Source of the DNA: Caballeronia turbans
GTDB lineage: Bacteria; Pseudomonadota; Gammaproteobacteria; Burkholderiales; Burkholderiaceae
Assembly: GCA_001544655.2 (NCBI GenBank)
Contig: FCOD02000007.1
Coordinates: forward strand, 62,001 to 126,000
Reading direction: 5' to 3'
DNA: 64,000 bases
Position 1 is the first letter of the stretch. Each line of letters opens with the position of its first letter. Positions 1,283 to 64,000 of the stretch are shown here, in pieces. The notes under the pieces are model-generated. The model had not been told where the DNA came from. It made no database searches and saw only the letters and a program-made list of their open reading frames with translations. A program made the position numbers and the translations under genes.

Positions 1283-3837
1283 CGTGCGGACCCAATTTCC
1301 TCAAATACATGCGTAATCACGAAGTCGCGAACGATGGCTTTTCGCGGGAGAATATTTTCGAGCAACTCGCGTAGGCCCGGGATATCCCACTGTCCATTTC
1401 CCAACAAATAGAGCATCGCACCGATCGTGGTATCGGACGTCGTCCGGAAGGTTTCGTAGAACGCGCGATTAGCCCGCGTAACGCGCAGGTCTGGCTCCAG
1501 CACCAGCAGCGGGTCGGACATCGTGTCGATGATCGCGTCGGCATAGTCACGTGCTCGCACCACATCGTCGTGAGTCGTCTTGAGTTCCTGATTGCGATAG
1601 CGCAGCTCATCGTTGGTCGTCGAGAGTTCTTCGTTCAGTGACTGCAACTCCTCTTTCGCCGCTTCGAGCTCTTCATTGGTGCTCTGGAATTCTTCGTTAC
1701 TTGATAGCAGTTCTTCTTCGCTTGACTTGAGCTCTTCGCGTGCGCTTTCGTGTTCCGCGAGCATGGTTCGAAGCTGCGTTCGCATGGCGCCGACCTCGGC
1801 GTTCAGTCGGACGATCTCTTCGTCTTTCGGATCCGCGCCCTGTGAGACGACCTTGCGCCCCAGACGTTGGCGCAACGTCTGCAACATCAGGGACTTCAAC
1901 GGCTCATCCTTTTGCGTCGACAGGGTATCCGAACTCTTCAGGCTGCCTTCAAAAAACGTCAAAAACCAGCGGCCCGCCGCTTCGGCGGTCTGGACCGGAT
2001 GAACCTCGAGGCTGGCGGTCACCAACCCGCTAGTACGCGCGGTTTTCAGATCGGCCTTACGAACGACAACACCCTCCTGCCGCGCCTGCCTGATCGCGTC
2101 GTTGAGAGCAGGAAAGATTTCGGGCTTCGCCAGTCGCTGAAGATTGGTGATCGGCGGACCGCTCGGGTTGGTCAGATAGGCGGAGGTGTCCCCTCGAAAC
2201 TCGATGACGTTCAGATCATCGTCACATAGTACGGACGGCGGGACATAGCGGGCGAGAGAGAGACGATCGACTTCGGCGCGAAGTAATGATGCGTCGACGG
2301 GTTCCGACTCATCGCTGGAGACGTTAGGAGAACGGACGGCGGTCGAAGGAACCAGTCGCGGCGCAAGGCGCATCTCGGCAGGCGAACTCATGCGGGGCTT
2401 CTTGCTATACACCTTGCTGCGCTTGTTCTCGACGACGCCAAAGAGTTCGGAGAAGGCGCCGACCGTCTCGGATGGGCCCAGCATCAGTACACCATCCGGT
2501 TTTAGCGCGTAGTGAAAGAGCGGCATTACACTGCGTTGGGCGGGCGCACTCAGGTAGATCAACAAATTTCGGCAGCTGATCAGGTTCATCCGCGAAAACG
2601 GCGGGTCGCTCACCACGTCGTGGCGTGCGAACGTGCAGAGATCTCTGACAGCTTTGTCAACGCAGTAGTATTTGCCATCGCGTACAAAGAACCGCTCCAG
2701 GCGTTCGGGCGACACATTTCGCGCGATGTTCTCGATGTACCGGCCGGCGCGCGCCGTGTCCAGCGGTCCAGGGCTGATGTCGGTGCCGAAGATTTGGACT
2801 GACGGAACCTGCGCGCGCTGACTAAGGTATTCAAGTAGACAAATGGCAATGGAATAGACTTCCTCGCCGGTCGCGCACCCTGGCACCCAGATCCGCAGTG
2901 TCTTGCCTGCGTCATCACCCATGAGGCGGGGGAAAACAGTCTGGGTCAACACCTCGAACGTCTCGGGATCGCGGAAGAATTCGGTAACCTGGACCAGCAG
3001 GTCGCGTCCCAATGCGAGGGTTTCCGCAGGCTCCGATTCGAGCACGTTGACGTATTGTGCTGTGGAGGTCAGTTGCCGCAATGCCATGCGACGCGACAGC
3101 CGGCGCTGGATCGTACCGGGTTTGTAGTGCGTAAAGTCGATATTGCAGGCGTTCTGGAGCAGACGGAAAATAGCTTGGAAACTGGTTTCAGCCGATTCAA
3201 TCGCATCGGGTTTCGCGCCTGCCACTGACCCCAGGTGAGGATGTCGCGCTATGCGGATTATTTCCTTTGCGATTTCATGCGGTGCGAGCACCCGATCGAC
3301 GCATCCGAGCCCGATTGCCGCATGCGGCATACTGTTAAAAAGTGCCGACGCGTCCTGAGCGAACGTGAAACCTCCCTGAACTTGAACCGCCTGAAGACCC
3401 AGCGCACCATCCGAGCCGCTCCCGGAGAGAATCACGCCAATGGCGTTGGCGCCCTGGTCCTTGGCGAGCGATTCGAGCAGGTCGTCCACCGGCATCGGTG
3501 GTCCGAGCGACTCGTCGCGGGGTTGAAGCCGGATGCGGCGATCGACCACGAGCATTCGTTTGTTCGCGGGGATCGTGTACAGATGGTCTGCCTCGATAAT
3601 CATGTCGTCGGCGGCTTCCTGCACCCGCGTGGCCATGCGCTTGGCAAGAATTTCCGCGAGCAGGCTCTGGCGGGACGGATCGAGATGCTGCACTACGAGA
3701 AATGCCATGCCGCTCACAGCCGGAATTTCCGACATCAACTCGGAAATTGCCTCGAGACCGCCAGCAGAAGCGCCAATACCGACTACTGGAAAACCCGGCG
3801 ATGCCGGCTCGGTCCTCATCGTTGCGGGGTCGGTCAC
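1237..3837 (-). CDS. CheB-CheR-coiled coil-PAS protein, 5' part of the frameshifted signalling gene
   Basis: Chemotaxis-like methylesterase/methyltransferase fusion. The CheB-type domain (about residues 15-200) keeps the catalytic Ser (GIGASAGG), His (VVQHLDPS) and Asp (SGSGSDGALG). The CheR domain (about 215-480) has the SAM loop VPGCATGEEVYS and the CRNLLIYL motif. A long heptad-rich coiled coil rich in EEL/NEEL (about 660-750) follows, then a PAS domain cut off at residue 850 or so. The end of this frame (after FEEIG) is out-of-frame sequence; the PAS should continue into the kinase half at 35-1282. The start is GTG at 3837 with GGGA six bases upstream; an ATG at 3819 and an upstream in-frame start near 3906 are alternatives. 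Such fusions usually signal through the C-terminal kinase and receiver, so the lesion would uncouple input from output. Confidence 0.85.
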   Translation of the reverse strand: MTDPATMRTEPASPGFPVVGIGASAGGLEAISELMSEIPAVSGMAFLVVQHLDPSRQSLLAEILAKRMATRVQEAADDMIIEADHLYTIPANKRMLVVDRRIRLQPRDESLGPPMPVDDLLESLAKDQGANAIGVILSGSGSDGALGLQAVQVQGGFTFAQDASALFNSMPHAAIGLGCVDRVLAPHEIAKEIIRIARHPHLGSVAGAKPDAIESAETSFQAIFRLLQNACNIDFTHYKPGTIQRRLSRRMALRQLTSTAQYVNVLESEPAETLALGRDLLVQVTEFFRDPETFEVLTQTVFPRLMGDDAGKTLRIWVPGCATGEEVYSIAICLLEYLSQRAQVPSVQIFGTDISPGPLDTARAGRYIENIARNVSPERLERFFVRDGKYYCVDKAVRDLCTFARHDVVSDPPFSRMNLISCRNLLIYLSAPAQRSVMPLFHYALKPDGVLMLGPSETVGAFSELFGVVENKRSKVYSKKPRMSSPAEMRLAPRLVPSTAVRSPNVSSDESEPVDASLLRAEVDRLSLARYVPPSVLCDDDLNVIEFRGDTSAYLTNPSGPPITNLQRLAKPEIFPALNDAIRQARQEGVVVRKADLKTARTSGLVTASLEVHPVQTAEAAGRWFLTFFEGSLKSSDTLSTQKDEPLKSLMLQTLRQRLGRKVVSQGADPKDEEIVRLNAEVGAMRTQLRTMLAEHESAREELKSSEEELLSSNEEFQSTNEELEAAKEELQSLNEELSTTNDELRYRNQELKTTHDDVVRARDYADAIIDTMSDPLLVLEPDLRVTRANRAFYETFRTTSDTTIGAMLYLLGNGQWDIPGLRELLENILPRKAIVRDFVITHVFEEIGSARCGSMLPAWSDECMN

Positions 3838-4329
3838 ATCATCTCCCGTATGGCAAAAAACCGCCGGTCGGTCACCTGCGTCTCGACGCACCAGTAGGCC
3901 CCACATGCGCGCTTTCTAGTCGCACCTCAAGGAGGGGTCCTTGCGGCTAACCGATAGCGCCTGACGCATGCCGCTGCACCCGTCCCGCGGTCTGCTCCGC
4001 CCCGTTCATCGATCTTGCCCGGCACTCTCGAACGATTCCGACAGTCGGCAAGTCGCTCGACGTTTTGCGCTAGCAGCAATGGGCGCGGCGTAAGCACCCG
4101 GTGGTCGATTCGGTCATATCGCCGCTGCGGTCCACGTTTTCACGGTCCGTAAGGTTCAGCAAAGTCGATACCGCATCGCCGCAGCGCTTATCGTTACAAC
4201 TGCAAGGTTAGTCTAATCGAAGCGATTAATTAGCGTTGCCGGCTGTATCGACACACCGCGACGGCCGCCGCGCCCAGTGCCGACGTCAGGCGCCTTTATT
4301 GCTCTACGTATATGACTGGCGGAGGGCCC
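3838..4329. promoter_or_regulatory. Divergent intergenic region between two chemotaxis-type genes
   Basis: About 490 bases with no convincing coding sequence, between the minus-strand CheB-CheR gene and the plus-strand CheB gene. Both promoters must lie here. The segment around 4180-4230 is less GC-rich than its surroundings, but I could not assign -35/-10 boxes or an operator with confidence. Confidence 0.4.
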
Positions 4330-11701: not shown

Positions 11702-12156
11702 ACCAGCCTCCGCAAGAATTTGTAGGACCGAGTTGCGGCGACGCATTCATTTCTGTCACGAACCGTTAAAGCCGCTCCCGAGCGTCAACGTAAATCTAGT
11801 TCATGGGACGCGCGATTGCGAGAAGCGTCCACTTCAAAGACGCGGCGAATGGCAGGGGTTTCTCATGTATCTACTCCCATATCGCTGGTTGCGGCACGGC
11901 ACCAACAACTCCTCGGGGCATTGCGTGCCTCGAGTGACGTACGAGTGACCCTCGCGCGAGACGGTCGTTCTCGCCAATACGTTTTATTCGCAAACCGTGA
12001 AATTGAATTTGCTTTCGCCTTGCAAGCTGTCTTAAATACGTATCACGTCTTTGCCAGGACTTTCTGCTTCAATTCCAACCCCGCCGAATCTTGAGGCGCC
12101 CGGTCCGCGGTCTCGGGCAATCATCGGCACTTTGACAGCTGAGGAGTGTACGGCGA
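11702..12156. promoter_or_regulatory. Upstream region of the sulfatase maturase genes
   Basis: About 450 bases. The part from roughly 11975 to 12080 is AT-richer than the surroundings and is the best place for the promoter of the plus-strand genes that follow. A reading frame at 11816-12094 was judged not to be coding. Confidence 0.35.
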
Positions 12157-20867: not shown

Positions 20868-21986
20868 ATGAGCCTCGCCAACTTCATTGAAGCCGATCTT
20901 TCCGGGCTGATTGACGACTGGACCGGCTACGCCCTTGCACTCAGCCAAGAGGGCAGCCAGCTCTCTGAAACGCAACTGCGTGATTCGGCCGCCGAGATAT
21001 TGAGCGCGATTGCCGCCGACATGCGCGACACCCAGAGCCCAGCGCAGCAGCAGAGCAAGTCGCGGGGCGAACAGCAGGAACGGGAAACGAGCTTCGATCG
21101 CGTCGCGCAGCAGCACGCAGAGGCTCGTCTCTCGCATGGTTTCGGTATCAACGATGTCGTGGCAGAGTTTCGTGCGCTGCGGGCCACGGTGTTGCGACGC
21201 TGGCAGAAGACCTCACCAGACGGTGCTATAGCGTTTCAGGAAATGATTCGTTTCAATGAGGCAATCGATCAAGTGCTCGCGGAATCGGTACGACACTACG
21301 CGTATCGGACGGCGCGCATCCGGGACCTGTTTGCCGGCGTGCTTGCACACGACCTGCGCTCCCCGCTTGGCGCGATACTTAACTCGAGCGAAGTGCTTCT
21401 GCACGACGAAAGCCTGTCTTCAGCCAGTGTGAGAGCGGTCGCATTCGTACAGCGCGGAGCAATGCGCATGAAACAGATGATCGACGACTTGCTCATCTTC
21501 ACACGCACCCGTCTGGGTGACGCAATGCCGGTCAGCTTTACGTCGCAGGATATGGGGCGTATCTGTGCCGACGCGGCGGACGAAGTGCGCGCGTCATACC
21601 CAAATGCGCACATCGACCTGCGTCTTGGGGGCACACTGCAAGGCCGATGGGATGCGAGCCGGCTCGGACAGTTGATGGTCAATTTGCTGACCAATGCCGT
21701 GCGATATGGCTCGGGTCCGATTGTCGTCGAAGCTAAGGGTCAAGACGAACAGGTGACCGTGATCGTTTCGAACGCAGGCGATCCGATACCGGAGGCCGCG
21801 CTTCCTACGCTTTTCGATCCGCTGACAAGGGCGGTTTCTCCTAACCACAGTGGGACCGCAGCCGGTGTGGGCCTGGGCCTTTACATCTGCCGCTGCATTG
21901 CCCTCGCGCACCAGGGCAGGATAAGCGTCGAATCGACGGAACGCGGGACTCGATTCATCGTGCACATGCCACGTTCACCGGCCTAA
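20868..21986 (+). CDS. Sensor histidine kinase with RsbRD-type N-terminal domain
   Basis: Soluble two-component kinase of 372 residues. The helical N-terminal domain (residues 1-130, with LIDDWTGYAL and the helix AEARLSHGFGINDVVAEFRALR) resembles the RsbRD/globin-like sensor N-domain of stress regulators. It is followed by HisKA with AHDLRSPLGAIL (about residue 160) and a HATPase with NLLTNAVRYG, an N-G-D variant at the G1 box (VSNAGDPIP) and GVGLGLYICR. No membrane segment is present. No response regulator is adjacent, so it is an orphan. The ATG has GGAGAATCA upstream. Confidence 0.85.
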   Translation: MSLANFIEADLSGLIDDWTGYALALSQEGSQLSETQLRDSAAEILSAIAADMRDTQSPAQQQSKSRGEQQERETSFDRVAQQHAEARLSHGFGINDVVAEFRALRATVLRRWQKTSPDGAIAFQEMIRFNEAIDQVLAESVRHYAYRTARIRDLFAGVLAHDLRSPLGAILNSSEVLLHDESLSSASVRAVAFVQRGAMRMKQMIDDLLIFTRTRLGDAMPVSFTSQDMGRICADAADEVRASYPNAHIDLRLGGTLQGRWDASRLGQLMVNLLTNAVRYGSGPIVVEAKGQDEQVTVIVSNAGDPIPEAALPTLFDPLTRAVSPNHSGTAAGVGLGLYICRCIALAHQGRISVESTERGTRFIVHMPRSPA

Positions 21987-28475: not shown

Positions 28476-30857
28476 CTAGATAGAGCCTTTTGGCACAGAT
28501 GTCGGATGCGGTGCGATCGCGGCTCGTATCGCGGCCTCCAATTGACCAAGAGTGAAAGGCTTCGGAAGCTCGGACCATGCGAAGCTGGGTTGCATTTGCG
28601 GCGGGATGGTGCTCCCTGAGGCAAAGATCACTCCAAGGCCTGGACACATCGCTTTCGCTTGCTTCGCTAACTCCAGGCCCGACATGTCGGGCAAGTTGAT
28701 ATCGGTGAGCAGCACATCGAACCGGCGCTGGTCCAGCGCTGTCAGCGCTCCCGAAGCGTGCGCCGTGGCAGACACCCGATGGCCCAGCAGTTCGATCAGC
28801 TCGCACACGGCTTCGCAGGCCAAAGGGTCGTCCTCGACCACCAGGATGTTCTGAGCCGGCGTTTGTGCGGCCTGCAGTTCGCTCGCCCTGGCATTGTCCT
28901 TCGCGAGCGTCTCACCGGGAGAACCGAGCACGTGTCGAATCTTGAACGCCAAGTCTTCGCGACTATAGGGCTTGCTCAGAAGCTCTACGCCTTCATCGAG
29001 ACGCCCCGCGTGGACGATGGCGTTTTGCGTGTAGCCCGATGTGAAGAGCACGCGTAAGTCAGGCTGTAGCCGCCTTGCCTGCCGAGCCATCTCGGGGCTC
29101 TTGAGCGTTCCTGGCATAACCACATCAGTGAAAAGAAGATCGACATGCATGCCACTGCTCACGACAGCGAGGGCCTGCTCTGCGTTGTCCGCTTTCAGCA
29201 CACCATAACCGAGTTCCTTCAGCATCTCGATGACCGTCGCCTGAACCTTGTGGTCGTCTTCCACGACGAGGACGATCTCGTTTCCACCGGGTGTCGGGCC
29301 GGTCGTACGGCGCACCGGCTCGTAAGCCTGCGCCGTCGACCTGGGGAGATAGATGCGGATTGTCGTGCCGTGTCCCGGTTCGCTGTAAATGCGGATATGG
29401 CCGCCGCTCTGCTTGACGAATCCATAGGCCATACTCAAGCCCAGCCCGCTGCCTTCTCCTTCAGGCTTTGTCGTAAAGAACGGATCGAAGGCGCGTTCAA
29501 GGATTTCCTGCGTCATCCCATTGCCAGTATCGGTGACGGCCAACATCACGTAGTGACCGGCTGGCACATCGGAAAGCGAGCGAACATATCGATCGTCGAG
29601 CATGGCATTGGCAAGCTCGAGCGTCAATTTCCCGCCGTCCGGCATCGCGTCACGGGCATTGATCGCCAGGTTCAGGACGACGTTTTCCAGTTGATGCCAG
29701 TCCACCATTGCGTTCCACAGGCCACCGGCCACGACCGTTTCCACCTCGATGGTTTCCCCGATCGCGCGGCGCAGCAAATCGTCCATGCCGCGGATCATGG
29801 TGGCGAGATTCACCGAGACCGGCCGAAGCGCCTGACGGCGGCCAAAGGCCAACAGCTGCGAGGCGAGCTTGGCACCGCGCTCGACCGCATCGAGCGCGTT
29901 GGCGAGACGCGCGATTGACCATTCGTCACACGAGGCGCGGCTCAGTAGCAGGTCGAGATTGCCGCGCAGCACTTGCAATACGTTGTTGAAGTCGTGGGCC
30001 ACGCCCCCGGTGAGCTTGCCGATTGCTTCCATCTTCTGCGCCTGGAAAAGCGCCGCCTGAGTCTGCTCGAGCGTTTGTTGGGCCTCGTATTTCTCGGTGA
30101 CGTCACGCGTGATCTTTGCAAAGCCGATCAAGGTGCCCGACTCATCCCGTATCGCGTCTATGACCACGTGTGCCCGAAAACGGGTACCGTCGCGGCGGAC
30201 ACGCCATCCCTCGGCTTCGAAACGCCCTTCTCTGGCGGCCGTGGTGAGCGCCCGGTGGGGCACGCCAGCCTCGATGTCTTCAGATGTGTAGAAGCGGGAA
30301 AAGTGCGACCCAACGATCTCTTCCGTCGCATACCCCTTGATACGTTGCGCGCCCTGATTCCAGTTAGTCACGTGTCCGTCGGGCGAGAGCATGAAAATCG
30401 CATAATCGGTCACACCCTGCACGAGCAGCCTGAAGCGCCGCTCGCTCTCGATGACGGCGTCATGGGCGCGACGTTTCTCGCTCTCGTCGCGGACGACCTT
30501 CACGAACCCGCGAACATGCCCATCCGGCTTTATGAGGGCAGTGGTGACCACGCTTGCCCAGAACACCGAACCGTCCTTTCGCCTTCGCCACCCTTCGGTC
30601 GTGTGGCTGCCGTGCTCGCGGGCGTCGCGTAGTTCGGCTTCGTAAGTCTCGGCCGAGCGCGCATCGGAGGCGAACAGGACGGAGTAGTGCCGCCCGACGA
30701 TCTCAGATGCGTCGTAGCCGTAGATCGATGCGGCGCCAGGATTCCACGAGGCGACGAACCCCTGCGGGGTCAACGCAAACAGGGCAAGGTCGATTGTGGA
30801 CTGCGTCCAAAGTTGCACCCACTCCGATAGTTCGACGCGCTCTTCACTACTTTCCAT
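28476..30857 (-). CDS. Hybrid sensor histidine kinase, PAS-PAS-HK-REC-REC
   Basis: Cytoplasmic two-component hybrid kinase of about 793 residues, with no membrane segments. Two PAS domains (about 10-125, ASWNPGAASIYGYDASEIVG; and 135-250, NWNQGAQRIKGYATEEIVG) precede HisKA (LTGGVAHDFNNVLQVL, phospho-His about 285), HATPase (NLAINARDAMPDGG, DTGNGM, GSGLGLSMAYG) and two receivers: one with VVEDDH, TDVVMPG and SKPY, the other with VVEDDP, TDINLPDMSG and PKPF. Both receiver Asp residues are intact, suggesting a phosphorelay or competing phosphate sink. Start ATG 30857 is preferred; an in-frame GTG at 30899 would add 14 residues. Ligands and output partner are unknown. Confidence 0.9.
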   Translation of the reverse strand: MESSEERVELSEWVQLWTQSTIDLALFALTPQGFVASWNPGAASIYGYDASEIVGRHYSVLFASDARSAETYEAELRDAREHGSHTTEGWRRRKDGSVFWASVVTTALIKPDGHVRGFVKVVRDESEKRRAHDAVIESERRFRLLVQGVTDYAIFMLSPDGHVTNWNQGAQRIKGYATEEIVGSHFSRFYTSEDIEAGVPHRALTTAAREGRFEAEGWRVRRDGTRFRAHVVIDAIRDESGTLIGFAKITRDVTEKYEAQQTLEQTQAALFQAQKMEAIGKLTGGVAHDFNNVLQVLRGNLDLLLSRASCDEWSIARLANALDAVERGAKLASQLLAFGRRQALRPVSVNLATMIRGMDDLLRRAIGETIEVETVVAGGLWNAMVDWHQLENVVLNLAINARDAMPDGGKLTLELANAMLDDRYVRSLSDVPAGHYVMLAVTDTGNGMTQEILERAFDPFFTTKPEGEGSGLGLSMAYGFVKQSGGHIRIYSEPGHGTTIRIYLPRSTAQAYEPVRRTTGPTPGGNEIVLVVEDDHKVQATVIEMLKELGYGVLKADNAEQALAVVSSGMHVDLLFTDVVMPGTLKSPEMARQARRLQPDLRVLFTSGYTQNAIVHAGRLDEGVELLSKPYSREDLAFKIRHVLGSPGETLAKDNARASELQAAQTPAQNILVVEDDPLACEAVCELIELLGHRVSATAHASGALTALDQRRFDVLLTDINLPDMSGLELAKQAKAMCPGLGVIFASGSTIPPQMQPSFAWSELPKPFTLGQLEAAIRAAIAPHPTSVPKGSI

Positions 30858-31488
30858 GTGTGTCACTGCCTTGCTTTGTTGCTTCGTGTGCGCCGACACT
30901 CGGACGCTCGAGTCCGCGGCCGTTTGCGTCGTCTGAATTTACCTGATCCAGCACGCGCGCTCCGCATACCAGGAGGAGAGGTGCTCGCTGCATGTTTTGA
31001 AAAAAGGGAAATTCGACACCAATGGAAGCAGAGTCTTCCGGGACCCTCGAACCACCTCATCCACCGAACGACATCGACAGATCTTCGTAGATCCTCCCCT
31101 GATGGTGTGGCGGTAAGAGGTCTACGGGCATAGTTCCTCTTCGCGCAAGCCAAGGATGGACGAAATGCCTTTCTCGCCGGAAAAAAGACCACCCTCGGGC
31201 GGTGGTTAGGAAGTTGGGGCATGCGGAACGCCTGCAACGGGTGGACTAACCCCAACACGCAGGATAAAACCTGTAGCAATCCACGTTCCACAGCGATGTT
31301 GCCATCGGCGGACTTCCGTACGAGCGCTTGTTGTGACCATCTCATTAGATTCGCTTCGCGCCTATCACGAGCGCACTCGCGCCAACCTCGTCGTTTTTCC
31401 ATCAATGGCGCGGATCAGCGCTTCTGCCTCGCATGGGCGCTATCACTTAGACGCCGTGCTTTGCCCGTGCCCGTTCCACAGAGCGGCC
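30858..31488. other. Long non-coding stretch with a minus-strand terminator
   Basis: About 630 bases between two minus-strand genes. It contains the promoter of the hybrid kinase at its left end and a rho-independent-like terminator at 31181-31207. The remaining sequence has open frames but no support for a gene. Confidence 0.4.
31181..31207 (-). terminator. Rho-independent-type terminator, minus strand
   Basis: Read on the minus strand, ACCACC (31206-31201) and GGTGGT (31193-31188) form a GC-rich stem around a short loop, followed almost at once by TTTTTT (31186-31181). It points away from the GlxA-type gene, whose stop lies about 280 bases upstream on that strand. Confidence 0.6.
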
Positions 31489-53931: not shown

Positions 53932-54219
53932 ATGAACCGCAAATTTCGCCTTGTAACGATTGTCACGCTCGCGTGCGCCTGCATGTGGGGTGGCGCCAAT
54001 GCATGGGCCCAGCAAAACGGGGGGCCGCCGGGCAATGCGTCAACGCGCGGCGAGTCCGGGAAGTCCGCCGGCGTGGAGGGCGGCGCGGGTGCGGCGGGCC
54101 AGTCGGGAACGGACCCCGCCACGTTGAGCCGCACCGAAGAACAGCGCGTTCAGAACAAGAACGCGCAGGGCGCATCGGCTTCTTCCGACACCCGCAAGCG
54201 CAAGGACTGGAAGGAGTGA
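53932..54219 (+). CDS. Small secreted protein, 95 aa
   Basis: Signal peptide (RLVTIVTLACACMWGGANAWAQ, cleavage after Ala) followed by a Gly/Ala/Ser/Asn-rich, disordered mature part ending RKRKDWKE. Start ATG 53932 follows GGAAGG. Its stop overlaps the GTG start of the ABC-receiver gene (TGA at 54217-54219), which implies translational coupling and a possible joint function with that exporter. No family recognised. Confidence 0.7.
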   Translation: MNRKFRLVTIVTLACACMWGGANAWAQQNGGPPGNASTRGESGKSAGVEGGAGAAGQSGTDPATLSRTEEQRVQNKNAQGASASSDTRKRKDWKE

Positions 54220-56873
54220 CGCCGGGCGTATCGACCGATGCAGCGCGTACCCAGGTGCGCCGCCGCATCGTTGCCGACCTGTGGCGCGCGGTGTGGGCGT
54301 GGCGTTATCAGACCGCCGCCGCCATCGTCCTGATGATCGGCGCGCGGCTCGCGGTCGTAGCCGTGCCGTTGATGCTCAAGCGCGTCATCGACGAGTTCAG
54401 TCATCCTGCATCGGCCGTCGTCTTTCCTGTCTTTCTCGTGCTCGCCTACGTTCTGTTGCGCTATCTCGGCGACGTGCTGAACGAGGCACGCGACGTGGTG
54501 TTCAGCATCGTCACGCAGCGCACCGTGGCGTCCTTTGCAGAGCGAACGTTCGCTCATCTTCATGCCCTGGGCGCGCGCTTTCATGCGCAGCGCGAAACCG
54601 GCGCTGTCGTGCGGGACGTGCAAAAGGGCGCGGACGGCGTCGGATTTCTGCTCGGCACCGCATTCTTCACGATCGTGCCGGTGGTGATCGAAATCGGCAC
54701 GGTCGTCGCCGTGATGATGAGCAGTTATGCTATCGAATTCATTTCGATCATCGCCGCGACGTTCGTGCTGTATTCCGTATGGACCCTCATCTTCACGCGC
54801 TATCGCATGCGCTTCCAGCGCGCGGTCAACAAGCTCGAGGCCCAGTCCGACAGCCGGCTCGTCGATAGCCTGCTCAACTATGAAACCGTGAAGTTCTTCG
54901 CGAGCGAGCGCATCGAAACGAACCGGCTCACGAGCGTGCTGGACGATTGGGTGCATGCGCGTGTCGCCAATCAACGCGCGCTGACGCTGCTGCACGTGGG
55001 GCAGAGCACGATCATCGCCGTCGGCATCGCGGCGGTGATGCTGCGCGCCGCGCAACAGGTCGTCGCGGGCACGATGAGCGTCGGCGACCTCGTGCTGGTG
55101 AACGCGTATATCGTGCAAGTCTGCAACCCGCTCAACACGCTCGGCTTCGTGTTTCGCGAGACCAACGACGCGTTCGTGAACGTCGAGCGCATGTTCAACA
55201 TTCTTCTGTCGCGCGGCCGCGTGCGCGAGGATGTGGACGAGGCAGGGGCGCAACCGCTCGTCGTGACGGCGGGTGAAATCGAGTTCGATCATGTCGAGTT
55301 CGGCTACGATCCGGCGCGGCAGATTTTGCGCGACGTCGATTTTCGCGCGCATCCAGGCAAGAAGCTCGCCGTAGTCGGAGGCAGCGGCTCAGGCAAGTCG
55401 ACGCTCGTGAAGCTGTTGTTCAGGCTTTATGAGCCGACCGCGGGCGCGATACGGATCGACGGACAGGACCTCGCGCACGTCACGCAGAACAGCCTGCGCG
55501 AGACTATCGGCATCGTGCCGCAGGACACGGTGCTCTTCAACGATACGATCGCCTACAACATCGGCTATGGCCGTCCCGAGGCCACGCGCGCGGATATCGT
55601 GCACGCCGCGCGCGCCGCACAACTCGATGGCTTCATCGAGCGCCTGCCGGATCACTACGAGACCCGTGTCGGCGAGCGCGGCGTGCGGCTCTCGGGCGGC
55701 GAACGTCAGCGCATCGCGATCGCGCGCGCGATACTGAAGAATCCGCGCATCATCGTGTTCGACGAGGCGACCTCCGCGCTCGATACGCGTTCTGAACGCG
55801 CGATCCAGAACGAGCTGGATCGTCTCGCGAAGGGACGCACGTCAATCGTCATCGCGCATCGGCTCTCGACCGTGGTCGATGCGGACTGGATACTCGTGAT
55901 GGAGCACGGGCGTATCGTCGAGCAGGGACAGCACCATGAGCTGCTCGCACGCGACGGCGTGTATGCGCGCATGTGGTCGCTGCAGTGGCAGCAGGGCGAG
56001 CTGGAGCACGCGCAACGAAAGGTCTCGGCGCAGGCGGTCGGGCTCGACGCGATCGTCGCGGGCGTCGTCGATGCGCTGCACGAAGAGATCGCGGCGCGCG
56101 GCGTGAATCTATATACCGTCATCACCGAGCCGGGCTTGCGCGTATCCGGCGATGCGAGTGTGCTGCAGCAGATCGTCGCCGAGTTGTGCCGCGCGCAGAT
56201 GGGCGCCGCGATGCGCGGTGAGCGCATCGAGTTGCGCGTGTTCCGCGAAGGCAATCACGCGAGCCTCACAGTGATGGGACAACGCCCGAATCCCGCGGAT
56301 CTGTCGCAGCAACAGGTGCGGCGTCTCGAGAACGCATTGACGGAGTCAGGCGGCAGCCTGGCTGTGCGCTATATCGACAAGCACGTCGCCTATGTCGCGA
56401 CGATGCCCTTGCGCCCGGTGCTCGACGATACGGCCACCGCCGAAGCCGCGCACGACGATGCGCTCGCCGGCGTCACGGTGATGGTGCTCGACGATCAGGA
56501 GGAAGCACGCGATGCGCTGGAGGGTGTGCTCGAATCGGTCGGTGCGCATGTGGTGTTGTGCGCATCGGGCGATGAGGCACTCGCGAAACTGCGAGCGCTG
56601 CCGGGCGCGCAATGGCCCGACGTGTTGCTCTGCGATATCGTGCTCGGCGGCGAGCAGGACGGCTATGAAGTCCTGCGACGCGTTCGTGAGGAAGAGGCGA
56701 GCCGTGGGGCGTCGCTCGGCGAACGCATGCCCGCGATCGCGCTGACGGGACATACGCAGGCCGAAGCGCGCTCACGCGCGCAAGCGGCGGGCTTTCAGGC
56801 GCATCTCACGAAGCCCGTGCCTGCGCCGAAGCTGATCGGGACGATCGGTGCGGTGACGGCGCGCACGGACTAA
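54216..56873 (+). CDS. ABC exporter half-transporter fused to a degenerate kinase-like ATPase and a receiver domain
   Basis: Membrane protein of 885 residues. The N-terminal ABC exporter domain (about 25-330, six helices, ATM1/ABCB-like) is followed by an ABC ATPase with Walker [15 protein letters not shown] (about 385), Q-loop PQDTVLF, signature [15 protein letters not shown] and Walker [13 protein letters not shown], then switch HRLSTV. After about residue 600 there is a region resembling a HATPase domain without the N box and G1 motif, then a full receiver (about 750-880) with [20 protein letters not shown] (phospho-Asp), ALTGH and LTKPV. The start is GTG 54216, overlapping the preceding gene; a longer in-frame extension to 53883 is antisense-like. 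The phosphorylation control of transport is inference. Confidence 0.9.
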
Positions 56874-57850
56874 ATGTGCTGCGCCGCGCGCGACTCCGAC
56901 GCTTCGATGATCTGCCGGAAATGTTGCGCCGTGCGCTGCAGCCCTTCGTCGAGCGGCGTCGTCGGCGACCAGCCGAGCGCCTCGCGCGCGAGCGCAATAT
57001 CCGGCTGTCGATGCCATGGATCATCCATCGGCAAAGGCTTGAACACAATCTCCGACGACGAGCCCGTCAACGCGATGATGCGCCGCGCGACCTCGAGCAT
57101 CGTCAGTTCGTGCGGATTACCGAGATTCACCGGGCCCGTCAGTTCGTCGGGCGTATTCATGAGGCGGATGAACGCATCGACCATATCATCGACATAACAG
57201 AACGAGCGCGTTTGCGTGCCTTCGCCATACACCGTAATCGGCTGGCCCGATAACGCCTGCATCATGAAGTTCGAAATCACGCGCCCGTCCGACGGATGCA
57301 TGCGCGGCCCATACGTATTGAAGATGCGCGCGATCTTGATCGACAGCCCATGCTGCCGCCGGTAATCCATGAAGAGCGTTTCGGCGCAGCGCTTGCCTTC
57401 GTCGTAACACGAACGCGGCCCGATGGGATTCACATTGCCCCAGTACGCTTCCTGTTGCGGATGCACGTGCGCGTCGCCATAGACTTCGCTCGTCGACGCC
57501 TGGAAGATCTTCGCGTGGACGCGCTTGGCGAGCCCGAGCATGTTGATCGCGCCGTGCACGCTCGTCTTCGTCGTCTGCACCGGGTCGTGCTGGTAATGGA
57601 TCGGCGAAGCGGGGCACGCGAGGTTATAGATTTCGTCCACCTCCACATAGAGCGGAAAGGTGACGTCATGGCGCATCAGCTCGAAGTTAGGGCTGTCGAA
57701 CAGATGCGCGATATTGTCCTTCGTGCCGGTGTAGAAGTTATCGACGCATAACACGTCATGACCTTGTGCCACGAGTCGCTCGCACAGATGCGAGCCGAGA
57801 AAGCCTGCGCCGCCCGTCACCAGAATGCGCTTTCTATAAGCTTCTTTCAT
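56870..57850 (-). CDS. UDP-glucuronate decarboxylase (second copy)
   Basis: Extended SDR of about 326 residues making UDP-xylose from UDP-glucuronate. NAD loop [15 protein letters not shown], then [25 protein letters not shown] (Tyr-Lys) and [17 protein letters not shown]. It differs from the 39729-40724 enzyme in many positions, so it is a paralogue. The last codon overlaps the convergent ABC-receiver gene by four bases. Start ATG 57850 is preferred; TTG at 57856 has GGGA five bases upstream. It is downstream of a GT1-like gene, with a gap of about 27 bases. Confidence 0.93.
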
Positions 57851-57877
57851 GTTCAAATGTTCCCGTGATGATGCGTG

Positions 57878-58837
57878 CTAGCTGCATACGTGGCGTAGCG
57901 CTTCGTCCCAGTCGCGGGCGAAGCGGGCGATGTGAAAGCGTTCGAGCGCAGTCCGTCGAGCGCCTTCGCCGAGACGCCGTGCTTCAGCGGGATCGCGCAG
58001 CATCTGCTGCATGGCGTCGATGAGCGCATGCGTATCCGTATGGACGAAGCCGTTCTCACCGTTGCGGATCACGGTGGCGAGTTCGGTCGTCGCGAGTCCG
58101 ACGATCGGCATGCCGATCGTCATCGCCTCGACGATCGCAAGCCCGAGACTCGTCCAGCGAATCGGGTTGAAGAAGAAGCGATATCTGGCGCTGAACGCCG
58201 CAAGCTCCAGGTTGCCGATCTCGCCGACCCCGCCCGCCGATTGCGCGTCCATGCCAACGAGATCGAGCGGCACGCACGCGGCGGCCTGCGCATAGACATC
58301 GTTCCCGAGTCGCCTGCCGCGCTGACGCAGATGGTTGATCACCGCGATGCCGCGCTCCAGCTCACCGCTGTAGCGCACGTGTTCCGGCACCACCACGCCA
58401 TGTTCGATGACGCGCGTCGGGGTGTCGCCGCTGTCCCACATCAGCCGGTTGAAGTGCGTGACATGCACGAGCAGCGTGTCGCGCTCCTGCACCCAGTGCT
58501 TCTGCTCGAAGGGATTTTCCTGCGGCGGATCGTGTTCGATATAGACACGCGGCAGGCGCCGTTGCGCGTCGGTGAGAAGGTTGAGACGGTCATCGTCCCA
58601 TTGTCGTTTGTGCTGAAAGAGGACGACGTCGAATGACTGCGACGGCACCTCGCTCGCCGGCATTTCATGCACGTTCGCCCCGAAGGGCAACGCGCCCGCC
58701 GTGCCCGCGTATCCGGGCGGATAGCCGGGGCGCGTGACGAGATAGAAGTCGTGCGGCGCCTGGCTCAGGTAATACAGGTAATTGCCGTGGATATGCCATG
58801 TGAGCACTCGCAGGCGCCGTGAACTAGTCGTGGGCAT
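57878..58837 (-). CDS. Glycosyltransferase, GT1/GT4-like
   Basis: About 319 residues with two Rossmann-like halves. The C-terminal donor-binding region shows RFFFNPIRWTSLGLAIVEAMTIGMPIVGLATTE, a pattern of GT4-type glycosyltransferases (E-x7-E-like motif around LAIVEAMTIGMP). The N-terminal half has VLTWHIHGNYLYYL and VYIEHDPPQENPFEQ. ATG 58837 follows GGAGG. It overlaps the upstream gene's end (58824), typical of a tight operon. Sugar and acceptor are unknown. Confidence 0.8.
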   Translation of the reverse strand: MPTTSSRRLRVLTWHIHGNYLYYLSQAPHDFYLVTRPGYPPGYAGTAGALPFGANVHEMPASEVPSQSFDVVLFQHKRQWDDDRLNLLTDAQRRLPRVYIEHDPPQENPFEQKHWVQERDTLLVHVTHFNRLMWDSGDTPTRVIEHGVVVPEHVRYSGELERGIAVINHLRQRGRRLGNDVYAQAAACVPLDLVGMDAQSAGGVGEIGNLELAAFSARYRFFFNPIRWTSLGLAIVEAMTIGMPIVGLATTELATVIRNGENGFVHTDTHALIDAMQQMLRDPAEARRLGEGARRTALERFHIARFARDWDEALRHVCS

Positions 58838-59882
58838 GAAAAACCGCCTCCTGCAGATGTGCGAATGCGACATCGAGCACGCTTTGCACGCTTACGTTCA
58901 GCGCGCATTCGTGGTGGTAAGGGCATTCGCGGAAGGCACAGGGCCGACATGCGGGCCAGTCTGCGAGCACACGATGACGCGTGTGATCGAGTGGTGCCCA
59001 GCGCCGCGTATCGCTGCCCGATGCAATCACGACGCTCGGCGTGCGCATCGCCGCGGCGACATGCGAGAGCCCTGTGTCATTGCAGACGATGAGCCTTGCC
59101 CGCGCGACTAGCGCGGCCAGCGCTCCGAGCGACGTCCGCCCGGCGAGATCGATGGCATGCGCGCCGGCGTCGCGTGTCACGCATGCGGTGAGATGCGCTT
59201 CGCCCGCGCTGCCGGTGATGGCAACCTGCCAGCCCGCGTCCGATAGCGCGCGCGCCACTTCGCCGAAGCGTTCGACGGGCCATCGGCGCGAAGGCAACTG
59301 CGCGCCCGGATGCACGACGATGAGCTTGTCCTGGTCTATCGCACAGGCATCGACGAGCGCATTGCATTCGCGTTCGTCGTCATCGGTCAGCGGGATCTCG
59401 AGATCGAGCGTGCGAACGTCGATGCCGAGACGTTCCATCAAGGCGGTGTATCGCGCGGGCTCGGGCAAGTCATCGGGCCACGGCATGAAAACGCCTTCGC
59501 GCATGGCTTCATCGGGCTTCAGAAAGCCCGCGTTCAGATGTGCACCCATGCCCTCGACGATGTCGTTCGCGACGCCGCCGCTGCCGTGCAACTGAATCGC
59601 GAGATCGAAGCGCCGCTCACGCAGCGCGTGCAGAAACGCGGGAAGATGCGCATCGGTCTCTTCCTGTTCGGGAAAGCCGATGGCACCGGGAAACACGATC
59701 AGCTCATCGAGCAGATGCCCGTACCGCTCGACGAAACGCGCGGCCCAGGGCAAGCCGGCCAGTGCGATACGAGCATGCGGAAACGCCTGCCGCAACGCGC
59801 GCAACGCGGGCACGGCGCACAGCATGTCGCCGAGTTGCAGCGCGCGAAAAACGACGATGCGTTCGACCGGCTCGATGTTCAT
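58824..59882 (-). CDS. Glycosyltransferase family 9 (heptosyltransferase-like)
   Basis: 352 residues with the GT9 pattern: FRALQLGDMLCAVPALRALRQAFPHARI at the N-terminus, LIVVHPGAQLPSRRWPVERF (phosphate/heptose-binding) and CNDTGLSHVAAAMRTPSVVIASGSD near the end. Transfers heptose or a related sugar, generally to LPS core or another glycan. Start ATG 59882. Its stop region overlaps the downstream gene's start, and its start overlaps the upstream GT2 stop by four bases. Confidence 0.88.
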   Translation of the reverse strand: MNIEPVERIVVFRALQLGDMLCAVPALRALRQAFPHARIALAGLPWAARFVERYGHLLDELIVFPGAIGFPEQEETDAHLPAFLHALRERRFDLAIQLHGSGGVANDIVEGMGAHLNAGFLKPDEAMREGVFMPWPDDLPEPARYTALMERLGIDVRTLDLEIPLTDDDERECNALVDACAIDQDKLIVVHPGAQLPSRRWPVERFGEVARALSDAGWQVAITGSAGEAHLTACVTRDAGAHAIDLAGRTSLGALAALVARARLIVCNDTGLSHVAAAMRTPSVVIASGSDTRRWAPLDHTRHRVLADWPACRPCAFRECPYHHECALNVSVQSVLDVAFAHLQEAVFHAHD

Positions 59883-60931
59883 AAAAAGAACACCCTGAAC
59901 TTGAACGCGCCGCGAATGCGCCAGTAGATCGACAGAAACGGAATGATCGCCGACGTGCAAAACATCTCCGCGATGTGCGCTGGCGTGCGCGCGGTAGTCC
60001 TGAGGCGTTGCATGCAGAACCAGATCGTCATCGCGATCCATGCGAGCGCCGCGACGATTGCAACTTGCGATGCGCCCGCCGCCAGCGATACGACCGCCGC
60101 CACGAGTGCCGCGAGCATCGCATAGTAGAGAAGCGGCGGATGGCGCCGTATCCGCTCGCGAAACAGCGTGCGATGTTTCTTGTAGAGCAATGCGTCGAAC
60201 TGACTCTTCTTCTGCTGCGACAGGCTCACGCCCCAGCGCGCGGGCCGCACGGGATGCAGCACCATCGCATCGTCGGCGCGTGCGATGACGAGTCCCGCTC
60301 GCATCAACGCGAAGTGCAGATCGGAGTCTTCACGCCATGCGGACGTGTAGCGCGCATCGAATCCGCCCGTGCGTTCGAGTGCGGCGCGTGTTGCGAACGC
60401 ATTGGCGGTCGCGAACTCCGCGTTCGCGAGTCCGGCCGCGTCGAGTTCGTAGTCGGTCGGGCGCTTCGGCAGCGGCACGACGATACGCCCTGAGACGGCG
60501 TCCGCGCCGGCATCGAGCGCGCGCATGCCGTTCGTGAGCCATTGCGGATCGGGGATGGTGTCGTCGTCGGTGAACGCGATGCGTCTTGCAAGCGATGCGC
60601 GCCAGCCCGCGTTGCGTGCGCCCGCCGGGCCTTGCGTCGCCGTCACCGGTACATAGCGGATTTTCGGCCCGCTTGGCGCATGCAAGGCGGCAAGACGCTG
60701 CACGCATGCCTTCGTTGCTTCGTCGGGTCCGTCGTCGCATACGATGATCTCGTAGCGCGACGCATCGTATGTTTGCGCGGCAATGGCGCACACGCAGCGC
60801 TCGAGCATCGCGGGACGGCGATAGGTCGGCACGATCACCGACACGTCGGGGATGAAACCGTCGCGTGATGGAACGGGCGCCGCCGTCGCGTTCATCTCCG
60901 CGTTTTCGAACAGACCGGCATACGTGCTCAT
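59879..60931 (-). CDS. Glycosyltransferase family 2
   Basis: 350 residues. The GT-A domain (about 25-240) has VSVIVPTYRRPAMLERCV, IIVCDDGPDEAT, the DXD-like IAFTDDDTIPDPQW and TSAWREDSDLHFALM; one or two hydrophobic helices (about 265-300) near the C-terminus suggest membrane association. ATG 60931 overlaps the carbamoyltransferase stop by four bases. It probably adds a sugar in the same surface glycan built by its neighbours. Confidence 0.9.
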   Translation of the reverse strand: MSTYAGLFENAEMNATAAPVPSRDGFIPDVSVIVPTYRRPAMLERCVCAIAAQTYDASRYEIIVCDDGPDEATKACVQRLAALHAPSGPKIRYVPVTATQGPAGARNAGWRASLARRIAFTDDDTIPDPQWLTNGMRALDAGADAVSGRIVVPLPKRPTDYELDAAGLANAEFATANAFATRAALERTGGFDARYTSAWREDSDLHFALMRAGLVIARADDAMVLHPVRPARWGVSLSQQKKSQFDALLYKKHRTLFRERIRRHPPLLYYAMLAALVAAVVSLAAGASQVAIVAALAWIAMTIWFCMQRLRTTARTPAHIAEMFCTSAIIPFLSIYWRIRGAFKFRVFFL

Positions 60932-62673
60932 GCGCGCGCCCCCGGCTTCTCGATGAGAAATGAACCGATCACGAGCGCATCGAGCGGTGACGTCCAGAAC
61001 GATTCGAGCGCATCGCGCGGTGTGTTTACCATCGGCTCGCCGCGCGTATTGAACGACGTGTTGACGAGGACCGGCACGCCGGTGCGCGCCTTGAACGCGG
61101 CGATCAGGTCGTAATAGAGCGCATGCTGCGCACGATTGACGGTCTGCACACGGGCCGTGCCGTCGATATGCGTGACGGCCGGTATGCGTGCTTTCATCTC
61201 GTCACGCACGTCGAACACGAACAGCATGAACGGTGCGACGCGCGCATCGACGAACCAGTCGGCCGCATGCTCTTCCATTACGACGGGCGCCACCGGACGA
61301 AAATCCTCGCGGTCCTTGATTTCATTGAGACGCGCCTGCATCGACGCGTCGAGCGGCGAGGCGAGAATCGAGCGCGCGCCGAGCGCCCGCGGCCCGAACT
61401 CCGTGCGACCCTGATACCAGCCGATCACGCGGTTCTGCGCGAGAATGTCGGCGGTTTCTTCAGCGATGTTCGTGAGCTTGCGATAAGGTGCGCGCGTCCA
61501 TTTCAGGAACGCTTCGATCTCTTCATCGCCGTATTCGGGGCCGAGATAAGCGTGGTCCATGCGCCACTTGCGGCTGACATCGCCCGCTTTGGCACGCTCG
61601 CGATAGTCGGTCCACAACGCGGCGCCGAGTGCCGTGCCGGCGTCGCCGGCGGCGGGTTGTACCCAGATTTCCTCGAAGGGTCCGCGATCGCGCAGCCGCG
61701 CGTTCATCACGCAGTTGAGCGCGACGCCGCCCGCCATCGCGAGATTCGGCAAACCGGTGCGCTCATGAAGCCACTTCGCGAGTTCGAGCGCGGTTTCTTC
61801 GAGCACCACTTGCAGCGAATGCGCGATATCGAAATGATGCTGTGTGAGCGGGCCGCCACGTTCGCGCGGAGGACCGAATCGTTCGACGAGACGCGGTGCA
61901 TCCACGGTATAGCTGCCATCGTGCCGATACTTCACGATTTCCCGAAACTGGTCGACGTAAGCGGGCTTGCCGAACGACGCGAGCGCCATTACCTTGTATT
62001 CGTCGGACGAGTGAAGAAAGCCGAGATAGCCCGTCACGGCTTCATAAAGCAAGCCGAGCGAATGCGGCAGCTCCACTTGCTTCAGCCGCCGATACTCGCC
62101 GTTCACGAATTGGCCGAGGCTCGTCGTGACGCCTTCGCCGCGTCCGTCCATCGTGAGGACGGCGGTGTCGTCGAAGGGCGCCGCGAGGAACGCGCTGGCT
62201 TCATGACAGAGATGATGATCGACGTGGTGCCATGCAAAGCGCGGCGCGCGTCCGCCGCTTGCAAAGCGCCGTTTCAGATGATGCGGCGCGCCGTCGAGCA
62301 ACTGCGCCTTCGCGTTGACGATATAGCTGAGAAACAAGGGGTCCCACGGCGATTCAGAAGGATTGTTGCTGGGCTGAGCCGACGGCATCATCGGTAACGC
62401 GATGCTCGCTTTCACCTCCTTCGGCATGCCCGAAAACAGTTGCGGATCGTATGAATACGCGACGTGATCGACATCGGCCAGTTCGATGCCCGCTTCCTTC
62501 AGGCAATAGTCGATTGCATCGAATGGAAGCTGCCACGTCGAGAACGGCACGGGGCGCTTGGCATGCTTGACGTGCGTGAAGCGTTCGTCCTCGGCCGCCG
62601 CGACGACGACGCCGTCCTTGACGAGCGCAGCCGCACTGTCGTGATAAACGGCATTGATTCCAAGTGTGTACAT
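60928..62673 (-). CDS. Carbamoyltransferase (NodU/CmcH family)
   Basis: 581 residues. Transfers a carbamoyl group from carbamoyl phosphate to a sugar or other hydroxyl acceptor. The N-terminal part has LGINAVYHDSAAALVKDG and the conserved metal/ATP-type HHLCHEASAFLAAPFDD; AVLTMDGRGEG, MAGGVALNCVMN and GRTEFGPRALGARSILASP, then NTSFNTRGEPMVNTP follow in order. Start ATG 62673. It lies between a GT9 and a GT2 gene, implying a carbamoylated glycan, as in Nod factors and some O-antigens. Confidence 0.95.
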   Translation of the reverse strand: MYTLGINAVYHDSAAALVKDGVVVAAAEDERFTHVKHAKRPVPFSTWQLPFDAIDYCLKEAGIELADVDHVAYSYDPQLFSGMPKEVKASIALPMMPSAQPSNNPSESPWDPLFLSYIVNAKAQLLDGAPHHLKRRFASGGRAPRFAWHHVDHHLCHEASAFLAAPFDDTAVLTMDGRGEGVTTSLGQFVNGEYRRLKQVELPHSLGLLYEAVTGYLGFLHSSDEYKVMALASFGKPAYVDQFREIVKYRHDGSYTVDAPRLVERFGPPRERGGPLTQHHFDIAHSLQVVLEETALELAKWLHERTGLPNLAMAGGVALNCVMNARLRDRGPFEEIWVQPAAGDAGTALGAALWTDYRERAKAGDVSRKWRMDHAYLGPEYGDEEIEAFLKWTRAPYRKLTNIAEETADILAQNRVIGWYQGRTEFGPRALGARSILASPLDASMQARLNEIKDREDFRPVAPVVMEEHAADWFVDARVAPFMLFVFDVRDEMKARIPAVTHIDGTARVQTVNRAQHALYYDLIAAFKARTGVPVLVNTSFNTRGEPMVNTPRDALESFWTSPLDALVIGSFLIEKPGARA

Positions 62674-62675
62674 GG

Positions 62676-63851
62676 TTAGCCGGTCCGTATTGACGAGTTG
62701 ATATGCAAGGGATGTGTTTCGATCAGTTCGAGCACCGCCGACACGACTTCATCCACGCCGACGCCTGCGAGGCACGCGTGATGTCCTTCGGGGCACACGC
62801 TGCGATAGCACCAGCGGCAAGGCACGTCGTGATAGAGCACGCGATGCGGCGTTTGCCACGGCATGTGCTGCGGATTCGTGAGCGCATACAGATCGACGAC
62901 GGGCGTGCCGAGCGCCGACGCAAGATGCACCGGGCCGCTGTTATTCGATACGAGCACGCGCGCGCGTTGAATCAATGCGGCGAGTTCGCCGAGTTCTAGC
63001 GCGCCCGACAGGTCTATCGCGCCTGGATTTGCAGCGCATGCATCGCGGCACAGCGCGCCTTCGCTGCGTGAGCCGGTGACGAGCACCGGCCATTGAAGCT
63101 GCGTGCGCAATCGCTCGATCACTTGCGCGAAACGCTCGACCGGATATCGACGGGATGCAGCGCTTGCGCCCGGATGCACCACGACGAATGGCGCATGGAG
63201 ATCGACATCACGCGCGCGCAGCTTTTGTGCAAGCGACATCGCATCCTCGGGCCGCACGTTGAAGCGCATGCGCGTATCCGACGTGCGCGCGCCGACTCGT
63301 TCGACGAGCGCGAGCTGACGTTCGACTTCATGCCGCGTGCCTTGCTGCGGCTCGGTCTCGGGCACCCAGTCGGTCAGAAGTCCATAGGGGTTCTCGCGAC
63401 AATGCGCGAGCCGCAGCGCAATGCCGGCGAGATGGCACAGCATCGCGGCGGGCAGCGGGTTCTGGCTGTATACGCTGAAGATCACGGCTGCATCGAAATG
63501 CGCCGCGTTGAGACGCGCGCGCATCGCGAGATCCACAAGGGCGTCGATAGGCGCATCCTGCTTGACCCACGGCGCGTCGTATTCGATCACGTCGTCGATC
63601 GCATCGATGAAGGGCGCTGCCGCCTTGCCCGCGCGCGATGCGAGCAAGGTCAGATGGCGCCCGGGCTGCGCCGTGCGCAAGGCGTGCAGCGCGGGCGTGG
63701 TCATCAGCACATCGCCGAGGTTGTCGAGCCGGATGCAAAGAATGCGCTTCACGTCCGCGCCCCAGTCACGCGCCTGATTCGCCGCGCTTTTGCGCGCATG
63801 CGCCGCGACGACCGGAGGCAACGTCGATGAATTTACCGGGTCGCGCTTCAT
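62676..63851 (-). CDS. Glycosyltransferase family 9 (second copy)
   Basis: About 391 residues. GT9 signatures: RILCIRLDNLGDVLMTTPALHALRTAQPGRHL, APFVVVHPGASAASRRYPVERFAQV and VLVSNNSGPVHLASALGTPVVDLYAL. A Cys-rich segment (CRWCYRSVCPEGHHACL) follows, as in some lipopolysaccharide heptosyltransferase-like enzymes. ATG 63851 follows GGAG by eight bases and overlaps the stop of the upstream HAD gene. Two GT9 enzymes in one cluster suggest successive heptose-like additions. Confidence 0.88.
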   Translation of the reverse strand: MKRDPVNSSTLPPVVAAHARKSAANQARDWGADVKRILCIRLDNLGDVLMTTPALHALRTAQPGRHLTLLASRAGKAAAPFIDAIDDVIEYDAPWVKQDAPIDALVDLAMRARLNAAHFDAAVIFSVYSQNPLPAAMLCHLAGIALRLAHCRENPYGLLTDWVPETEPQQGTRHEVERQLALVERVGARTSDTRMRFNVRPEDAMSLAQKLRARDVDLHAPFVVVHPGASAASRRYPVERFAQVIERLRTQLQWPVLVTGSRSEGALCRDACAANPGAIDLSGALELGELAALIQRARVLVSNNSGPVHLASALGTPVVDLYALTNPQHMPWQTPHRVLYHDVPCRWCYRSVCPEGHHACLAGVGVDEVVSAVLELIETHPLHINSSIRTG

Positions 63852-64000
63852 GCCGGACACTCCGCGTTGACGATGGCTATCGCAGCTTCGTGCATGTCCC
63901 TCACGACGATATCCGGCTCGCGTCCCGGGCCGCGCAGCCATTCGGTCTCGTTGCCGTTATCGATGAGCACGCTGCGGCAGCCCGCGCGCCTGCCCGCTTC
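63848..64000 (-). CDS. HAD-family phosphatase, C-terminal end (GmhB-like), partial
   Basis: Only 50 codons before the window end are seen. They read GRRAGCRSVLIDNGNETEWL and then PDIVVRDMHEAAIAIVNAEC before the stop, the usual end of HAD-IIIA phosphatases such as heptose bisphosphate phosphatases, with the A-G-C-R-x-V-L-I pattern. It overlaps the GT9 start by four bases. It continues past position 64000. Confidence 0.7.
   Translation of the reverse strand, partial: EAGRRAGCRSVLIDNGNETEWLRGPGREPDIVVRDMHEAAIAIVNAECPA

Follow-up and report, generated by a model that had tools for sequence, protein, structure and literature searches.

What is an ABC exporter doing with a two-component receiver at its carboxyl end? 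The gene that raises this question lies on a stretch of 64,000 nucleotides from Caballeronia turbans (contig FCOD02000007.1, positions 62,001 to 126,000), called the window here in its whole length, and an earlier note had described it as one frame in which the membrane domain of an exporter and a complete ABC ATPase are followed by a histidine-kinase-like ATPase lacking its N box and G1 motif, and then by a receiver with all its key residues. The answer that I favor, at a probability of roughly one half, is that the gene encodes an Atm1/ABCB7-like exporter that is tied to a glycan cluster and is controlled, through the receiver, by a two-component kinase. The frame translates to 885 residues with zero internal stops from a GTG start at 54216, the open frame reaching further upstream, to 53865, and the domain search that had been proposed for this protein matched ABC_membrane (E 2.2e-28), ABC_tran (E 1.5e-33) and Response_reg (E 5.3e-16) directly, and HATPase_c only by way of a family profile. 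Translation, Pfam and motif alignment therefore all bear out the single frame with its exporter membrane domain and complete ABC ATPase (Table 1).

Table 1. The fused gene, its neighbors, and the kinases and exporter pieces discussed in the text; coordinates are those of the window unless residues or another locus are named.
Feature	Coordinates	Strand	Basis or remark
Whole fused gene: ABC exporter, degenerate CA and receiver (885 aa, GTG start)	54216..56873	+	translation, Pfam
Transmembrane domain, residues 35-306, PF00664	54318..55133	+	Pfam
Nucleotide-binding domain (NBD), residues 345-592, Pfam match 371-520	55248..55991	+	Pfam, alignment
NBD motifs Walker A; Q-loop; LSGGE	residues 388-396; 435-437; 492-496
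NBD motifs Walker B and D-loop; H-loop	residues 512-523; 546-549
Predicted degenerate histidine-kinase CA (HATPase), residues 600-738	56013..56429	+	family profile, alignment
Receiver domain, residues 755-875; D759, D760, D807, T844, K866	56478..56840	+	Pfam, alignment
Codon of predicted phospho-acceptor Asp807	56634..56636	+	alignment
UDP-glucuronate decarboxylase-like epimerase (UXS), convergent, 4-base overlap	56870..57856	-	Pfam; so named in annotated relative
GT4 glycosyltransferase	57878..58873	-	Pfam
GT9 glycosyltransferase	58824..60041	-	Pfam
GT2 glycosyltransferase	59879..60931	-	Pfam
Carbamoyltransferase, PF02543 and PF16861, cluster marker	60928..62673	-	domain and genome searches
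Second GT9 glycosyltransferase	62676..63941	-
Kinase, HisKA-HATPase-REC	38-1282
Kinase, RsbRD_N-HisKA-HATPase	20868-21983
Kinase, PAS-HATPase and two receiver stretches	28479-30899
Sigma-54 regulators and PAS-HisKA kinase of L178	L178:24731-30628		candidate regulators, candidate donor
Exporter pieces of G071	L185:4408-4656; L197:7424-8143, 11908-12156

A survey of this architecture in relatives had also been called for; it found the fusion conserved, and only within a narrow group. Among the best 80 of 100 confirmed matches of a contig search, at least 41 loci are full length, and these belong to Caballeronia, Paraburkholderia, Burkholderia-named strains and one Pigmentiphaga, the closest gene among the matches listed being 94% identical (C. 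jiangsuensis and Caballeronia sp. INDeC2). The full-length fused gene occurs in 21/58 genomes of the same genus, and the family yields a fused gene in 42/150 genomes, counted from match rows as 35 unbroken and 7 whose two pieces share a frame. Among the matches listed at full length for the order there are three of 300 genomes, of which G288 belongs to another family; the class adds nothing to the host genome among 369 searched at E up to 1e-190, and among 398 searched in the phylum the host genome is joined by two others from its own family, the thresholds for class and phylum being such that very distant full-length forms would be missed. When the ABC core is placed in a tree of 70 chosen rows (36 fused, 3 receiver-less and 31 plain), the fused and receiver-less rows make up one side of a branch with support 96/91, two tail-less genes from other families branch next with weak support (81/37), and L137, L138 and L142 are flagged as long branches. 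The receiver-less genes (L125, L126, L127 and L189) all come from one genus, g10, and consist of the exporter and the dead CA without a receiver, so the exporter can evidently live without the switch; to account for this pattern, the history of the tail would need one gain and one loss of the receiver.

What the earlier note missed is the link between the fused gene and a glycan cluster, which continues past the window end with a HAD phosphatase, GT4, GT2 and PIG-L, and this linkage is conserved. At least one cluster gene lies within about 5 kb of the gene in 40/44 contig-search loci, none being found within that distance at L011, L016, L017 and L040 (4/44), and where flanks of about 7 kb were taken at ten diverse loci, the cluster adjoins the gene in nine, the exception being L162, in whose genome the carbamoyltransferase sits on another contig. 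Across the 150 family genomes the carbamoyltransferase is present in 42/42 that have the fused gene (41 within 15 kb, median 6.0 kb) and in 11 of the other 108, a co-occurrence with a Fisher p of 2.5e-27 on counts that include shared ancestry; within the genus, all 21 fused-gene genomes have a carbamoyltransferase match, one of them partial. The linkage persists across many genera, in which the cluster changes side and strand, it extends to the receiver-less genus, where the cluster adjoins the exporter in both wide-flank loci (L160, for the gene of L125, and L189), and the same kind of cluster accompanies both tail-less sister genes (L166 and L170), as against 0/9 other near Atm1-like loci.

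In these samples, then, the gene accompanies the cluster, yet the cluster can do without the gene. Four of the 11 carbamoyltransferase genomes without the fused gene have the receiver-less exporter (G101, G109, G133 and G092), and when eight cluster loci from genomes without a detected fused gene were looked at, L189 held the receiver-less exporter and the fetched stretches of the other seven held no full copy of the ABC gene, that of L186 breaking off with its contig shortly beyond the cluster. Beside the cluster of G071 (L185/L197) are two pieces, separated by about 3.8 kb, which are 42-43% identical to residues 62-139 and 155-402; no match to the remaining gene accompanies them, and with the rest missing they look like a decayed exporter gene. 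The proposal that the ABC gene is the only, necessary exporter of the cluster was rejected because in 7/8 of these loci the cluster stands with no full copy of it nearby, and for the same reason the fused protein is no obligatory exporter. The PLSDB table of Caballeronia zhejiangensis, which is incomplete, lists no other glycan exporter in the cluster, and a search of the open-licence literature found no papers on this glycan cluster.

If the neighborhood points to glycans, what does the exporter itself say? It has the ABC_membrane and ABC_tran domains and all motifs of an ABCB-like half transporter in one chain, and is therefore presumably a homodimer, with the key residues of the ABC motifs present in 70/70 aligned rows (69 distinct). 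Among solved structures, the best that cover the ABC part in a single match are those of the Atm1-type exporters AtAtm3 (7n58) and NaAtm1 (4mrn); two plant ABCB19 entries score slightly above them and match in pieces. MsbA exports a glycolipid, and glycolipid export may apply to the fused exporter too, MsbA (TIGR02203) being its best NCBIfam match; however, at 405.4 bits against a cut-off of 602 the fused exporter is not an MsbA member by that test. The likeness to Atm1/ABCB7 runs through the ABC core end to end and includes intact NBD motifs and six of eight pocket residues, whereas the two replaced pocket residues, the CA and receiver tail and the glycan-cluster location set the fused clade apart. 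The pocket positions come from AtAtm3, for which the available portion of the source gives T317, R324, R328, N387, Q390, L433, G437 and R441 as conserved glutathione-pocket residues (PMC9000953), and they were transferred through the structure-relative alignment in AtAtm3 numbering. Six are kept in the fused clade, which accordingly lacks the full Atm1/ABCB7 set of eight, and in 36/36 fused members examined R328 has become Q (residue 201) and N387 has become H (residue 260). Both changes recur in 3/3 receiver-less and 2/2 tail-less cluster genes; among 26 other Atm1-like genes the N is kept in 26 and the R in 23. The host genome, which has one full-length match to the fused gene among the matches listed, carries a separate Atm1-like gene (48% identity) that retains both R and N. 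Judged from the alignment, R to Q and N to H amount to a pocket change of the clade, one that does not name the substrate.

A different reading of the same exporter is that its substrate is still a glutathione-derived or metal-thiol compound, as for Atm1-type pumps, and that the glycan linkage is merely positional. The Atm1-type structures as best one-piece relatives, the six pocket residues kept and the occurrence of the cluster without a full ABC gene all give this reading some substance, and I nevertheless think it unlikely, because a separate Atm1-like gene is available in the same genome, because two pocket residues are replaced in every clade member examined, and because the cluster linkage has been kept over many genera while side and strand changed. 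Under the favored explanation the exporter would instead serve the adjoining glycan cluster, its substrate being the cluster product or an intermediate.

The tail poses the second half of the question. In the window protein Pfam gives no HATPase_c match, whether the limit is E 0.01 or E 1; of 33 members scanned one by one with the latter limit, 8 match it (best 0.026), and of ten diverse tails five do so at E up to 0.1, each match covering about the first half of the model and falling short of the curated cut-off. A profile of residues 590-752 built from 33 members is more telling (profile A1 holds the window protein and 32/41 full contig-search loci, profile A2 the window protein and 30/41): searched against the PDB it matched 18 sequences at E up to 10, with 3a0t best at 2.5e-7 and RetS and DivL among them, and since all 18 bear sensor-kinase or bacteriophytochrome names, the middle part is taken to be a real, decayed CA domain. 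With the N-box and G1 columns assigned via the profile-to-PDB alignment, the first, catalytic N-box Asn is N in 0/69 distinct members, the second is still N in 31/69, and the G1 Asp is D in 4/69, which upholds the first description of an ATPase without N box and G1. HisKA likewise gave no match in the window protein (Pfam, E up to 0.01). What is found is thus a CA homologue without the DHp and N-box/G1 residues of an active histidine kinase, and the middle domain is best read as a CA that lost catalysis and stands without a DHp.

Where could such a tail come from? Of three kinases tested, it is collinear with the CA and REC end of two hybrid ones, beginning just after the DHp: the tail matches the kinase of B. 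multivorans L178 at E 1e-15 and the window kinase at 38-1282 at E 3e-13, and the window kinase at 28479-30899 gives no match to the window tail and a weak one to the tail of L137. Unlike these hybrid kinases, the fused protein has no DHp/HisKA, has lost the CA catalytic residues and carries an ABC exporter in front. The tail may therefore be pictured as the rear portion of a hybrid histidine kinase, with CA and receiver, that would act as a regulatory module.

The receiver has fared quite differently from the CA. D759, D760 and D807 are invariant in 69/69 distinct members, position 844 holds T in 52 of them and S in the other 17, and K866 is present in 68; when each 90% identity group is represented by a single member, the three Asp and the Thr/Ser position stand at 36/36 and the Lys at 35/36. 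The window protein thus has the acidic pair, acceptor Asp, Thr/Ser and Lys of a receiver, and the key residues first reported in it recur in 68-69 of 69 members per site. As these acceptor residues are kept while the CA Asn is at 0/69, selection maintains the acceptor and not the kinase, and the receiver is, by its conserved residues, kept fit for phosphorylation.

With no histidine domain in the chain, any phosphate must come from outside it. A cis route through a linker His was rejected for want of a conserved donor, none being found in residues 585-620, where the best, H598, occurs in 46/69 members. Kinases of the window had been put forward as donors, and at least three are indeed present there, but nothing ties any of them to the fused gene. 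The kinase neighbors of the gene vary between relatives, and kinase and regulator probes found no conserved kinase beside it in 37 loci. Among 106 loci probed, sigma-54 regulators lie near the exporter or cluster in five (L178, L188, L189, L038 and L170), three of which also have a PAS-HisKA kinase (L178, L188 and L189); in the host genome the closest sigma-54 regulator (61%) sits on a different contig, and the 19.9 kb around it gave no match to the L178-type kinase. With these probes neither a neighbor kinase nor the L178 set of sigma-54 regulators and kinase proved conserved across loci, and a conserved neighboring donor is accordingly not claimed. In the Pigmentiphaga locus a sensor kinase and an HTH_8 response regulator (L040:604-2605), a RegB/RegA-like pair, are encoded some 2.4 kb upstream of the fused gene.

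How, then, might the switch work? In the mechanism that I favor, a histidine kinase or phosphotransfer protein would phosphorylate Asp807 in trans, the receiver would then alter the packing of the two tails under the NBD dimer, and the altered packing would switch ATP hydrolysis and transport, the dead CA perhaps serving as a spacer or as a docking surface for the histidine domain (DHp) of the donor. RetS and DivL are precedents of kinase-like regulators. A bolder version, which I put forward tentatively and with rather more doubt than conviction, would have a class of ABC exporters gated directly by a fused receiver under two-component phosphorylation, with a pseudokinase CA recruiting the donor kinase, and dedicated to releasing a carbamoylated glycan in Burkholderiaceae; the pump would then be the output of a response regulator.

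Information might also flow the other way, from pump to kinase, the receiver being a phosphate sink or sensor partner and pump turnover draining or tuning the kinase; BceAB-like logic is a model for this. A fully conserved receiver with no further output domain after it (Pfam) suits such a scheme, as do the sigma-54 regulators in five loci and the kinase in three, and I still rate it as improbable, given that no kinase is consistently adjacent and that a fusion at the NBD end fits pump control at least as well. To a similarly small degree I credit the view that the tail is a structural or localization module, for dimerization or docking, whose receiver goes unphosphorylated. Between the window gene and seven Caballeronia genes, dN/dS is 0.07-0.15 for the membrane domain, 0.04-0.10 for the NBD, 0.07-0.20 for the CA and 0.07-0.17 for the receiver, and by these low values in every domain all parts, the dead CA included, are maintained by selection. 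A CA that is dead yet under purifying selection, and that the receiver-less branch retains, speaks for a structural part; against it, the five acceptor-site residues stand at 68-69/69 in a receiver whose mean majority frequency per column is 0.65 (70 rows; NBD 0.87, membrane domain 0.74, CA 0.58).

Two known arrangements come close to a switchable pump of the kind preferred here. SLC5/STAC kinases (CbrA, CrbS and RpuS), according to the available part of PMC9100948, are symporters fused to a histidine kinase, some with a C-terminal REC, and so likewise join a transporter domain to two-component domains; however, theirs is a symporter with the transporter at the sensor side, whereas the fused exporter has a dead kinase, and its likely output is the pump. 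Rv1747, in the available parts of its sources, is an FHA-domain ABC exporter with phosphorylation-linked regulation, proposed for glycolipids (PMC5549992), whose partner is the Ser/Thr kinase PknF (PMC3908365); it shares with the fused gene the phosphorylation-linked regulation of an ABC exporter, but its FHA domains read phosphothreonine and the fused exporter has a receiver Asp. As far as these texts go, neither is a receiver-gated ABC exporter, and a search of the open-licence literature by title and abstract start found no fusion of an ABC exporter with a receiver or a kinase.

Most outputs of two-component systems are domains for transcription, enzyme activity or protein binding. If the favored explanation is true, a receiver wired directly to an exporter would let signaling control glycan export without transcription. 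The glycan cluster would gain a candidate regulated exporter, and the natural full, receiver-less and tail-less forms make the effect of the receiver testable.

An assembly join or frameshift between transporter and kinase genes, or absence of the fusion in relatives, would have spoken for an artefact in the terms of the earlier note, and all three are excluded to the point that this reading has practically no standing: nothing in the window gene speaks for it, broken frames do occur in a few relatives (L017, L049, L071 and L081), and 69 distinct aligned members have the same domain order in one open frame, with purifying selection acting before and after the joint.

The alignment behind these counts has 70 rows, of which L026 and L096 do not differ wherever both have sequence, leaving 69 distinct members; exact duplicates were dropped by script, the partial duplicates L087-L095, L017 and the split L133 were omitted, as were L156, L158, L162 and L164 (repeats of genomes already fetched), and rows L096-L106 are without about the first 79 residues. 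L049, from a record titled as a symbiont, L071 (Candidatus Burkholderia pumila) and L081 match in several frames, broken or badly sequenced, and were not usable in the alignment because they have no single full-length frame. L017 and G163:C130 are copies at 92% identity with a match ending at residue 808-810: the G163 match contains one TAG and stops at residue 810, the L017 open frame begins only at residue 81, and the G163 genome, whose fused copy is defective, gave no carbamoyltransferase match. In L133 and L134 (g8) the exporter and receiver matches fall in separate open frames, by a real split or a sequencing frameshift. Caballeronia temeraria carries the fused gene twice in a single genome (L011 and L016), and neither copy has cluster genes within 5 kb. 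In L116-L118, all of one genus (g24), a long proline-/alanine-rich insert falls at roughly the place expected for the CA's ATP lid. Elsewhere in the window, at 1237-3906, a single frame of 889 residues joins CheB methylesterase and CheR methyltransferase domains.
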